64,000 nucleotides of DNA. Source: Phytoseiulus persimilis. Lineage: Eukaryota; Arthropoda; Arachnida; Mesostigmata; Phytoseiidae. A program made the position numbers and the translations under genes. Where the stretch lies: positions 40,978,745 to 41,042,744 of the forward strand of contig CM075102.1 of assembly GCA_037576195.1 (NCBI GenBank), read 5' to 3'. The notes beneath the pieces were generated by a model. The model saw only the letters and a program-made list of their open reading frames with translations, had not been told where the DNA came from and did not search any database. Of the stretch, positions 33,095 through 61,633 are shown in pieces. Numbering within the stretch: position 1 is the stretch's first letter; every line of letters begins with the position of its first letter.

Positions 33095-33523
33095 TTACCA
33101 AGCCTGACCGTAAGCGACGGGAGCGGCACCGTAGGCGATGGGGGCCTTAGCGATAACTGGGGCAGCAGCGTAAGCGGGAGCGGCAACGGCGATCGGAGCC
33201 TTCGCGATCACGGGAGCGGCGTAAGATCGGCTCTCATATCGAACCGAAGTGGCGATGGGGGCCTTGGCGATCACAGGCGCAGCAGCATAGGCGACGGGGG
33301 CCTTGGCGATCACGGGTGCAGCAGCGTAGGCGACGGGAGCCTTAGCGATAACGGGCGCAGCAGCATAGGCGACGGGAGCGGCAGCGTACGCCGGGGCACC
33401 ATAGGCGACAGGAGCGGCAGCGTACGCCGGGGCACCGTAGGCGACGGGGGCGGCGGCGTATCCTCCGTAGAGGTTTCCAGCCTGAGCGGCAGCGGCGAGA
33501 GCGAGAACAAAGAAGGCGATCAT
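33095..33523 (-). CDS. Cuticle protein, Ala/Pro/Val low-complexity type with AKAP repeats
   Basis: A single-exon frame of 142 codons. The start is fixed by the signal peptide MIAFFVLALAAAAQA and a CAACA leader immediately before the ATG. The mature chain is built from AAPVAY and AAPVIAKAP repeats (five AKAP copies) with one charged island (SVRYESRSY) in the middle, and ends in GQAW. This low-complexity architecture is typical of secreted arthropod cuticle structural proteins; there is no Rebers-Riddiford chitin-binding consensus. A TATA box and polyadenylation signal are at the expected places. A paralogue with the same signal peptide lies about 7.4 kb downstream on the same strand. Long frames on the plus strand over this gene are shadows of its repetitive GC-rich sequence. 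Confidence 0.88.
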   Translation of the reverse strand: MIAFFVLALAAAAQAGNLYGGYAAAPVAYGAPAYAAAPVAYGAPAYAAAPVAYAAAPVIAKAPVAYAAAPVIAKAPVAYAAAPVIAKAPIATSVRYESRSYAAPVIAKAPIAVAAPAYAAAPVIAKAPIAYGAAPVAYGQAW

Positions 33524-40872: not shown

Positions 40873-41241
40873 TTACCAGGCGGCACCGTAGGCAACGGGG
40901 GCAGCACCGTAGGCGATGGGAGCCTTTGCGATGACGGGAGCAGCAGCGTATGCGGGGGCAGCAGCGTAAGCGATGGGAGCCTTGGCGATGACGGGAGCGG
41001 CGTAGGCGCGGCTCTCGTAACGGACAGAGGTGGCGATGGGAGCCTTGGCGATCACGGGGGCAGCAGCATAGGCGACGGGGGCCTTAGCGATGACGGGGGC
41101 AGCGGCGTAAGCGGGAGCGGCATAGGCGACGGGAGCGGCGTATGCGGGAGCGGCATAGGCGACGGGAGCGGCGGCGTATCCTCCGTAGAGGTTTCCAGCC
41201 TGAGCGGCAGCGGCGAGAGCGAGAACGAAGAAGGCGATCAT
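40873..41241 (-). CDS. Cuticle protein, paralogue of the gene at 33095-33523
   Basis: A 122-codon frame. The ATG at 41241 was chosen over upstream in-frame codons because it begins the signal peptide MIAFFVLALAAAAQA, identical to its paralogue, and is preceded by the same CAACA leader type. The mature protein has AAPVAYA and AAPVIAKAP repeats (four AKAP copies), a charged island (SVRYESRAY) and the ending GAAW. It is a secreted structural cuticle protein by composition. It differs from the first copy mainly in repeat number, which fits slippage or unequal exchange in the GC-rich repeat. Confidence 0.88.
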   Translation of the reverse strand: MIAFFVLALAAAAQAGNLYGGYAAAPVAYAAPAYAAPVAYAAPAYAAAPVIAKAPVAYAAAPVIAKAPIATSVRYESRAYAAPVIAKAPIAYAAAPAYAAAPVIAKAPIAYGAAPVAYGAAW

Positions 41242-53806: not shown

Positions 53807-54870
53807 CAGTGGCAGAGATGGGCGGAATCATAATCATGATTATGACCATGATCGATAATCATAGTCAAAGTGTGATCACGAAAATAATCATACTTTGACT
53901 AGGATTATTAATCACATCTTGATTATGATTATGATTAAAAATCATAGTCAAAGTATGAATATGAATATTCTCATGATTGTGATGACTATATCCATGTATA
54001 TGATGAGTATTATTTTTATTATTGTGATTATTATTGTTTCTGGTATACTCAAGCACCCGGTGGAAGGATGACACGCACACGAGGTGCGTGCGGGACCGGG
54101 GTCCATGGACGAGATTCCGGGATCGATCTTGACCGTACTTTTTGGAGTCAAGGGAAGTGATTCCGAGATCGATCTGGCCATACTTTTCTGAGTATGGAGT
54201 AGTGATTCCGGGAGCCATCTGTGACAGCCAGTTGGATTCTGGAGGAAGGCTAGCTCGGTCAGATCGATCCCGAAATCACTCCTCCATACTCGGAAAAGTA
54301 TGGTCAGAACGACCTCGGAATCACTCCTCCATACTCGGAAAAGTATGGCCAGATCGATCTCGGAATCACTTCCCTTGACTCCAAAAAGTACGGTCAAGAT
54401 CGATCCCGGAATCTCGTCCATGGACCCCGGTCCCGCACGCACCTCGTGTGCGTGTCATCCTTCCATCGGGTGCTTGAATATACCAGAAACAATAATAATC
54501 ACAATAATAAAAATAAGAGTCATCATATACATGGATATAGTCATCACAATCATGAGAATATCCATAATCATACTTTGACTATGATTTTTAATCATAATAA
54601 AGATGTGATTAATAATCATAGTCATAATCATTATTATGATTACGCTCATATCTGACCAGCGGTTCTCAAAGTGGTGGATATCGACCCTCAGGGGGTCGAT
54701 GGCTGATCCCCGGTTTACAGAGGTGATGCCGGGGTGGATTTGACCATACTTCTTGGCGTCCACGTAGGTGGATCAAGGGTCGACGGTCGACACCTTGGGA
54801 GACGGCAGTCCACAAACTTCAACGAAGTCGCCTAGGGGATCGATGGGTCAGTGGAGTTTGAGAACCACTG
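53807..54870. mobile_element. Foldback element with hAT-like ends and target duplication
   Basis: The outer ends are CAGTGG at 53807 and CCACTG at 54870, flanked by GTCTTAAC and CTCTAAAC: 6 of 8 bases agree and fit the 8-bp NTCTNNAN-type target duplication of hAT elements. Inside, 53807-54210 and 54316-54662 are near-identical inverted arms around a loop of about 105 bp. The arms contain 45-48-bp GATCGATCTGGCCATAC units, a CACGAGGTGCGTGCGGGACC segment, and AT-rich ATCATAATCATGATTATGA tracts at the outer ends. The right arm lacks about 50 bp of the AT tract. A second hAT-like end (CAGCGGTTCTCAAAGTGG) sits at 54658, so the element may be nested or may have mobilised from either end. No transposase: non-autonomous. 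Confidence 0.65.
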
Positions 54871-58016: not shown

Positions 58017-58078
58017 GGTGGTGTTCGTGAGCGGAACACTATTCTCGTGATTTGTTAATCTTAGGGAGCTCCAACGCG

Positions 58079-58199
58079 GTGAGATTTTTCGTTTGTTTTG
58101 CTGCCAACGCCGATGCTCAACTCGTTCTCCGACTGAGTGCGTTGTTTGTATTTGTTGACCATGTGACACGGGAGCTCAGAGCAAAGTTGGTTTTTGCAG
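58079..58199 (+). other. Predicted 5'-UTR intron of the Gly-rich gene
   Basis: Donor GCGGTGAGAT at 58079 and acceptor GTTTTTGCAG ending at 58199. Removing it deletes the upstream ATG codons between promoter and start codon and leaves a short 5' UTR, so the ATG at 58211 becomes the first one. Confidence 0.6.
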
Positions 58200-58210
58200 G
58201 CCCAGTGGAG

Positions 58211-58510
58211 ATGAAAAAATGTCTGTTGCTCATGTGCGCCATACTTCTGCTGGATTCTAGTGACTGTATGATGAAAATGATGATGATGAAGAAAATGGGC
58301 GGAGGACACGGCTTAGGAGGATACGGGGGCCAGGGAGGCTTCGGTGGTTATGGCGGTTACGGAGGTTACGGAGGCTACGGCGGCTACGGTGGATATGGGG
58401 CTTACGGAATGACTCCTTTCCTGGGCATGGGCTATCCTTATCAGTCACATCCCTATATGCCCATGATGCAGCCCATGCAGCCGATGCCGTATTATCCCAT
58501 GTATGGCTAA
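58211..58510 (+). CDS. Small secreted Gly/Tyr-rich protein with Met-rich segments
   Basis: A 99-residue chain. Residues 1-19 are a signal peptide (MKKCLLLMCAILLLDSSDC). Next comes a Met/Lys block (MMKMMMMKKM, residues 20-29), then a glycine-rich domain of GGY/GGF/GGQ triplets (about residues 30-66, six consecutive GGY units), then a Met/Pro/Tyr tail with PMQPM repeats ending YYPMYG. GGY-repeat proteins of this size in arthropods and nematodes serve as cuticle, silk or glue components or as antimicrobial peptides; the sequence cannot tell which. The poly-Met block is unusual. The start was chosen as the first ATG after the predicted 5'-UTR intron and because it opens the signal peptide. No AATAAA is visible soon after the stop. 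Confidence 0.8.
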   Translation: MKKCLLLMCAILLLDSSDCMMKMMMMKKMGGGHGLGGYGGQGGFGGYGGYGGYGGYGGYGGYGAYGMTPFLGMGYPYQSHPYMPMMQPMQPMPYYPMYG

Positions 58511-59625: not shown

Positions 59626-61512
59626 ATGTCTTGGTTTGTGTATAGATTTATCGTCTTTCTTTGCGTCGTCTCCATAATTCTGCTGCTCATGAGGGCTCGG
59701 GAGGAGTCTCGGTGAGTCCATGGCTCGAATTCCCCTTTTTTCTCGCGACTTCGTTGGTTACCTTCATAAACTGTCATTGCTTTTGATTCTAGATATAGCG
59801 TTGTATTTGAAGTTAAGGAGAACACTACTCGAGTACACCTTTTCCGTTTGCTGTGGAGAGAGGGTTTCTGGACTCTATCGACCCAGGAGTACGAATCGAT
59901 TGCACCGGGTCTACTTGACTATTTGGACCGCCCACGTGATGGCGTTCATAGCTTACTGTAAGAAAAGTCGTTACAAGCATGAGCTTACAAGAATCGCAGC
60001 GGATGTTCCGAAAGGACGCATCTTGAAAGTCACGAGTCCTCGTTCTGAACATTTTGAACTTTATTCGAGGCCTCAAGGAACACTGCGTAGATAAAATTTC
60101 TGAGAAAATTCTGTTCGATCAGTCCGTTGTTCGCGCGGGCGAGAAACGCAATTCCTGAGTCCCACCAAGGAGTCGCGACGGTGTCACTTGGAGTCACCGA
60201 AACATTCCATCGGCAACTAGCAAACGACGACAACAGGGTCCAGGATCTGTTCGCGAGAATCAACCGAACCCTCCGCTCGTCTTCCTTCCATAACGCGTTC
60301 GTAGTTTCCATCAATGCAACCGACGAAGGTACCGCGTCCCGAGGCCGAATTGGAAATGCGACATCGAGTTCCGGCGGGGTATCTCTAAGACATCGACCCA
60401 TTCCTTCCAGCTGCCTACACCTGGTCCGCGATTTCATTGCTGAAGAAGACCTCGGGAGCCAGAGTGGCTGTCCTGAACCTCGGACGTTATCGATGCCAAA
60501 TCTGCTTTGTCCCCAACATGACGGATCCGAACATGAGTTTCGTCCGGTTCCAAAAGAATGTGGGACTTTACGTGAAGGACTATAACCGCCTTGGGATTGA
60601 TCACACGCGTGCGGGAGTAACAAGTGAGGGGGGGGTCTCGGATGACCGCTTTGAGAAAAGAGCCCACGACATTTTTAGACCTATCTTCATGATAATGAGC
60701 CTTTGATACTACAATGGCGCGCAGTTTTCCACAGGAGAAGCAGGGGCACATGTCTGCGATTCCAAAATCGCCCATGAGTGAGCATCCTTTCTGCTTGCGA
60801 ATTATATCAATGAGAAAGAATCCTTCCCATGGAACGTTCGTAGAGGCGTACTAGCATGCGTAGAGCCCAGTAGTCCCTTCATCACTCTGCGGGAATGATC
60901 GAGGGCAAAACCTGAAGAGGATCATAACTTTGATTGCTTCGCCCACAAGCCACAGGTTCCGGCTCTGCCAGAATGCCATACGGGAATACCTGATCGGAGT
61001 CGGCGTGGATCCGATGCCTGATCTGCAAACGAAGGAAATTTACGTCCGAGGTTTCTTCTTTGAGTTTGCTGTGTACGGGGGCCTCATCCAGGAACACGAA
61101 AACCGACAAACGATCAAGGTCGAGTACATCGGGTCGCAGGCGGAAGCAGGTAAGATTCCCGTAGGAGGGTTTTTTCCAACTTGACGTTGGCGAGAATGAC
61201 GCGAAGTTATGAGATGCTCTCTACTAATGTTAAGCAAATGCTCCTCATATTCAGCTTGCAAGGATCGCAGATATCGGACTCCCAGTATCTGCTTTGAGCT
61301 GACTTACATGTACACGCTTTTCACCCAGAGTTATCGGATTGGCGACGAAAGAGAACTTCGTGTGAGTCCCCGTGCTTTACCATGTTCGATTTATTTCCGT
61401 GCTTTCTCTGAAGTATTTCTCATCTCGTAGTCTATTGCAGTTCGTGAGACGGATAGAGAACGGGTCCGCGAGTTGGACACTGGGCTTGGCAATAGCTCAC
61501 GTCTACGACTGA
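59626..61512 (+). CDS. GDA1/CD39 (NTPDase) family membrane protein with degenerate catalytic motifs, 8 exons
   Basis: Exons 59626-59711, 59793-59957, 60123-60328, 60411-60623, 60735-60777, 60956-61149, 61255-61361 and 61441-61512 join in phase to 361 codons plus a stop. The N-terminus (MSWFVYRFIVFLCVVSIILL) is a membrane anchor; an in-frame ATG at 59485 could add 47 residues. ENTPD5/6-like landmarks follow in order: APGLLDYLDRP and NAIPESH between ACR1 and ACR2, DLFARINRTLRSSSF before ACR3, DYNRLG after ACR4, YVRGFFFEFAVYGGLI where the family has FYAFSYYYDRA, PSICFELTYMYTLF where it has SP-LC-DLSYITALL, and SWTLG where it has GWALG. Active NTPDases hydrolyse nucleoside di/triphosphates using ACR1 DAGSTGTR, ACR2 ATAGLR, ACR3 DEG and ACR4 DLGGASTQ. 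Here they read EVKENTTR (35-42), GVTETF, TDEA (150-153) and NLGRYRCQ (175-182). The putative catalytic Glu (E152) stays, but the phosphate-binding Gly/Ser/Asp residues are gone. Likely an intact pseudoenzyme of the secretory pathway or cell surface. Confidence 0.82.
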
Positions 61513-61627: not shown

Positions 61628-61633
61628 AATAAA
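61628..61633 (+). other. Polyadenylation signal of the CD39-family gene
   Basis: AATAAA 116 bp after the stop codon, in the context GGCTCGAAATAAATC. It supports the terminal exon and suggests that the gene is expressed rather than decayed. Confidence 0.65.

Follow-up and report, generated by a model that had tools for sequence, protein, structure and literature searches.

Can a member of the GDA1/CD39 family lose the motifs with which its relatives handle nucleotides and still be kept as a gene, and if so, what might its product do? The question is raised by a gene on the forward strand, at positions 59626-61512 of the window, by which we mean the whole 64,000-nucleotide stretch of Phytoseiulus persimilis DNA analysed here.

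An intact gene of eight exons

The preliminary description had called this an intact eight-exon gene with agreeing splice phases, and the gene model bears that out. The exons join to 1086 nt encoding 361 residues plus the stop codon, with no stop within the 361 codons, all seven introns being GT-AG, with phases consistent up to the stop codon, and AATAAA following at 61628. Its features are as follows, L021 and L022 being two paralogues in the same genome.

59626..59711, + strand: exon 1, a short N-terminus and a hydrophobic stretch (putative signal anchor), followed by a phase 2 intron
59647..59691, + strand: hydrophobic run, residues 8-22, read directly from the sequence
59793..59957, + strand: exon 2, containing the ACR1 position
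59809..59832, + strand: ACR1 position, EVKENTTR (DAGSTGSR in L021 and L022), with the sequon N39-T-T inside it
60123..60328, + strand: exon 3, containing the ACR2 position and the greater part of ACR3
60193..60210, + strand: ACR2 position by alignment, VTETFH replacing ATAGLR
60313..60412, + strand: ACR3 position, NATDEA, spanning the exon 3/4 junction (DGTHEG in L021); Glu152 retained; sequon at N148
60411..60623, + strand: exon 4, containing Trp157 and the ACR4 position
60476..60499, + strand: ACR4 position, NLGRYRCQ (DLGGGSTQ in L021)
60735..60777, + strand: exon 5, 43 nt, with Cys231; both flanking introns are missing from the L021 and L022 models
60956..61149, + strand: exon 6, with Cys242 and the aromatic stretch RGFFFEFAVYGGLI (61047-61088) at the place that we take to be ACR5
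61255..61361, + strand: exon 7, with Cys304, Cys315 and the block PSICFELTY
61441..61512, + strand: exon 8, with the C-terminal block SWTLG and the stop TGA
61628..61633, + strand: AATAAA, a possible polyadenylation signal about 115 nt past the stop

A further ATG lies upstream in the same frame, at the head of MQWFVLY, and may be an alternative start. We rejected the idea of a splicing artefact that masks normal motifs: ACR1, ACR2 and ACR4 run uninterrupted within exons 2, 3 and 4, respectively, and because each rewritten motif sits inside a single exon, no alternative splice site was seen to restore it.

Elsewhere in the window, an open frame at 58031-58510 (+ strand) has a signal-peptide-like start, Gly-Tyr repeats and then a Met/Pro/Tyr-rich tail, which suggests a small secreted protein rich in Gly and Tyr. 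Tandem repeats at 33251-33460 and 40935-41173, translated by eye, are Ala/Pro/Val/Tyr-rich on the reverse strand and presumably resemble the repeats of arthropod cuticle proteins, in keeping with an arthropod host. At 54113-54413 two 45-bp tandem arrays adjoin; their units are related and run in opposite directions.

A family member by descent with rewritten motifs

The lack of a GDA1_CD39 match had been named beforehand as a result that would speak against the proposed identity. The joined protein does match this Pfam family (PF01150; hmmscan, E=1.2e-21), at 77.4 bits against a curated cut-off of 24.9 bits, about three times that threshold. The match falls in two stretches, the better of them at residues 24-211. 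A phmmer search of the PDB returned four distinct family sequences (best 5u7x, E=6.4e-15).

Judged by its motifs the protein looks quite different. The preliminary readings of ACR1 as EVKENTTR and of ACR4 as NLGRYRCQ are correct by alignment; that ACR2 is rewritten also stands, but the quoted letters GVTETF have to be shifted, as those facing ATAGLR lie one place on. All four conserved positions of ACR1 and four of the five in ACR2 are replaced. ACR3 is half retained: Glu152 and the following Trp157 are kept, and both glycines have become alanines.

How unusual this is can be gauged from an alignment of the window protein with eight family members that have intact or nearly intact motifs, four from the host genome and four PDB chains (two from plants and two from rat, as we understand them). 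Counting a column as conserved when it is the same in at least 7 of these 8 gave 41 columns, 18 in ACR1-4 and 23 elsewhere, of which the window protein retains 5 and 12, respectively. With so few ACR positions kept, we regard it as a relative by descent and not as an enzyme by motif. Scored in the same way by leave-one-out, the eight members had ACR counts of 18/18, 18/18, 17/18, 17/18, 18/18, 18/18, 18/19 and 18/19 and retained 61-100% of the remaining columns, so that the ACRs are the better-kept part in seven of the eight (the exception being rat NTPDase2, with 18/19 against 23/23). In the window protein this is reversed, and the ACRs are the worse-kept part. Taken alone the internal contrast is weak, because the entire protein has diverged: with four reference sets the one-sided p was 0.10, 0.086, 0.030 and 0.15, below 0.05 with one set only.

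An old duplicate within the ENTPD5/6 clade

A six-frame Pfam scan of the genome (181 Mb, 127 contigs) found five further GDA1_CD39 loci; this number is a minimum, and the scan missed the window gene itself. L021 and L022 (C3:21656000-21676300), about 17 kb apart, are of ENTPD5/6 type with intact motifs; three loci on C1 are of CD39 type. To judge by their motifs, L021 to L024 are presumably active. All paralogue models are without their first (anchor) exons; for L024 the junction near ACR2-ACR3 is weak, the L025 model is missing some middle exons, and that of L022 has neither the domain II insert nor the first cysteine pair. The L022 model also contains a likely spurious 6-nt exon, which was present in the neutral-decay simulation and removed for the codon-bias, codon-position and intron comparisons.

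With its paralogues the window protein shares 25-26% identity. In a tree of 10 rows, in which it sits on a long branch, it groups with L021 and L022 (support 98/94), and the five ENTPD5/6-type rows separate from the five CD39-type rows with support of 100/100, the subtype labels being assigned in this analysis. Its end branch measures 2.59 against 0.59 and 0.62 for L021 and L022, roughly a fourfold difference. Placing it as sister to L022 alone gave a p-AU of 0.183 in this tree, which neither establishes nor rejects that grouping.

The introns tell of the same kinship. Each of the four modelled for L022 has a counterpart in the window gene with identical alignment column and phase (86/2, 159/1, 387/1 and 437/0), and so have three of the four in L021, whose fourth is modelled at 401/2 and is possibly misplaced. 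Since introns are shared in both column and phase, the gene stems from an old duplication, and a retrocopy is ruled out. Compared with the L021 and L022 models it carries two additional introns in its second half. Its first intron finds no counterpart in the paralogue models, whose first exon is missing; the acceptors preceding the ACR1 exon in L021 and L022, read by eye, are also compatible with phase 2. A search for a recent twin copy elsewhere in the genome, in which 7 candidates were scored, revealed none: of 11 protein matches at E<=10, eight were the gene itself and three fell at L021/L022 on C3.

A live gene or a recently silenced one

The preliminary description had also held that this is not a decayed copy. 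Identity to L022 at codon positions 1, 2 and 3 is 0.44, 0.53 and 0.30 (about 0.26 when permuted), and to L021 it is 41, 53 and 29%. Silent sites are thus close to random although the protein can still be recognised, and it follows that constraint acted on it through most of its past. In sets of 300 runs of neutral substitution simulated on a copy of L022, the frame stayed free of stops in 58 at 0.05 changes per site, in 13 at 0.1 and in none at 0.2, a point at which protein identity was still 66%. The intact frame, the early breakage of simulated frames and the near-saturation of third positions relative to the first two exclude an old decayed copy, and the Pfam match agrees with this. The window gene has had a long life as a coding gene and is no old pseudogene.

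A different matter is whether a gene with a long, divergent coding life fell out of use too recently to have gained a stop or a broken splice site. Its synonymous codon bias, scored leave-one-out across six genes, is the weakest of the six (0.014 +- 0.030 bits per codon, the other values being 0.062-0.113), which may fit either a low level of expression or a recent relaxation of constraint, and its very long branch also speaks for silencing. Against silencing stand the open frame and the seven unbroken introns, together with the rarity of stop-free copies in the simulation even at the lowest level of change. On balance we think recent silencing unlikely.

Scaffold, predicted membrane topology and putative glycosylation sites

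While most conserved letters of the motifs have gone, several markers of the scaffold persist: Cys231, Cys242, Cys304, Cys315, Trp157, Trp350, the ACR3 glutamate, the aromatic stretch of exon 6 and the SWTLG end. Cys242, Cys304 and Cys315 fall in the cysteine columns of other members and Cys231 matches by spacing only; L021 for its part lacks a cysteine at the column of Cys304 in the present model. Four conserved cysteines are mentioned for the corresponding part of ENTPD5 in one study (PMC3829800). The hydrophobic residues 8-22 would be a type II signal anchor or an uncleaved signal, and the N-terminus looks more like an anchor than like a cleaved signal.

The protein has six sequons where shuffling gives a mean of 1.8, a 3.3-fold excess (shuffle P 0.004), and two of the six lie at the ACR1 loop (N39) and ACR3 (N148). 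The models of L021 to L025 have 3, 1, 4, 6 and 4, and as L024 also reaches six the number by itself is not special. One could imagine from these sites a secreted or surface protein, lectin-like or a decoy, that meets host, prey or microbial ligands and whose own glycans cap the active site. The placing of two sequons at former motifs, the fast evolution and the fact that one GDA1_CD39 protein is titled a lectin (5u7x) all lend this idea something, while the anchor-like N-terminus and the equal count in L024 speak against it; we consider it very improbable.

A probable dead enzyme with a proposed binding role

In active members of the family, phosphates are gripped by the ACRs, above all by ACR1 and ACR4. 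As most of the conserved phosphate-gripping letters of ACR1, ACR2 and ACR4 are gone, the window protein is predicted not to hydrolyse nucleoside diphosphates, and loss of nucleotide hydrolysis is the natural reading of its sequence. Mutational work on ENTPD5 indicates how this prediction should be weighed, in that W177A abolishes activity and G201A leaves it intact (PMC3829800). By position, W177 would correspond to Trp157 of the window protein and G201 would be a glycine of ACR4. On that reading the G201A result means that a single change in a loop need not be fatal, and the case for inactivity rests on the number of changes and not on any single one.

The same residues allow for a protein that is still an enzyme with altered chemistry, its ACR3 glutamate, Trp157 and the aromatics at the ACR5 place acting on another substrate or binding nucleotide weakly. 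Retention of Glu152, of the aromatic stretch and of a tryptophan whose presumed counterpart is needed for activity in ENTPD5 (W177A; PMC3829800) favours such a protein, but the replacement of all but one of the conserved positions in ACR1 and ACR2 and the sequon within ACR1 do not, and we find altered chemistry distinctly unlikely.

We favour, with fair though far from full confidence, an old duplicate of the ENTPD5/6 clade that turned pseudoenzyme: a signal-anchored luminal or extracellular protein that would perform no hydrolysis and would act by binding. In this scheme a DNA-level duplication took place long ago within the host's clade of ENTPD5/6-type nucleoside diphosphatases, and one copy would have become a pseudoenzyme and evolved fast. 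Its product would be two-lobed, signal-anchored, luminal or extracellular and probably glycosylated, and the loss of most of the conserved letters in three motifs would leave it unable to hydrolyse nucleoside diphosphates. Its mode of action would most likely be binding: it might serve L021 or L022, whose motifs are intact, as an inactive partner or as a regulator, or it might be a surface protein that binds a ligand. ENTPD5 and ENTPD6 are described as facing the ER/Golgi lumen, with UDP and GDP as their preferred substrates and a presumed role in glycosylation (PMC12890697). A dead relative in that lumen would most simply be a binding partner, a regulator or a ligand-binding surface. In short, the window protein is probably a fast-evolving dead enzyme with a non-enzymatic job in the secretory pathway.

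A second altered member

A CD39-type gene, L025/L026 (C1, about 24,433,650-24,440,850, - strand), is also altered. Its recovered exons match Pfam GDA1_CD39 with E=1e-51. As in the window gene, ACR1 (EVGTSHTE), ACR2 (ATEGMR) and ACR4 (DLSEASSH) are changed, with D-A becoming E-V at the same two places of ACR1. Unlike the window gene it belongs to the CD39-type clade (100/100), keeps ACR3 intact, has a C-terminal hydrophobic stretch and sits on an end branch of ordinary length (0.95). It retains 11 of the 18 ACR columns and 20 of the 23 others, a weak contrast (p 0.061, 0.14, 0.35 and 0.97 with the four reference sets). Its changes are milder, and it may still be active. If both genes are inactive, their placement in different clades would make the two losses independent. 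It is conceivable, although we would not expect it, that this lineage made pseudo-apyrases at least twice, the glycosylation sites at ACR1 and ACR3 of the window protein sealing the cleft and turning the scaffold into a regulator or receptor; if true, pseudo-apyrases would recur as a class of secretory-pathway proteins.

Comparison with known systems

Pseudoenzymes are known in many enzyme families. Among the open-access matches listed, no title concerned a pseudo-member of GDA1/CD39 that a genome encodes at full length, and none concerned the window gene or its genome; the single inactive member among them is an oncoprotein truncation. Two motif-losing members from two clades of a single genome would make the family suitable for asking what the apyrase scaffold does without hydrolysis, one possible role being to regulate the diphosphatases of the ER and Golgi that presumably supply glycosylation.

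The nearest systems are the ENTPD5/6-type NDPases, represented by L021 and L022 and by the PDB chains 5u7p and 5u7x, the latter two presumably from plants. The window gene shares with all of these the GDA1_CD39 match and the SWxLG end, and with L021 and L022 also the clade and the positions and phases of introns. It differs in its rewritten ACR1, ACR2 and ACR4, its two extra introns and its roughly fourfold branch; its shortened domain II insert likewise sets it apart from the ENTPD5/6 type and is common to L022.

The precedent for an inactive ENTPD5 product with cellular effects is mt-PCPH, an ENTPD5-derived oncoprotein that is reported to have no detectable NTPDase activity and still to affect cells (PMC3829800). 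It arises by a frameshift, a single-base deletion (PMC4090452), that truncates the protein, keeping most of ACR I-IV and losing nearly all of the second domain (PMC3829800). The window gene differs in being full-length and in having kept the second domain and lost the ACRs.
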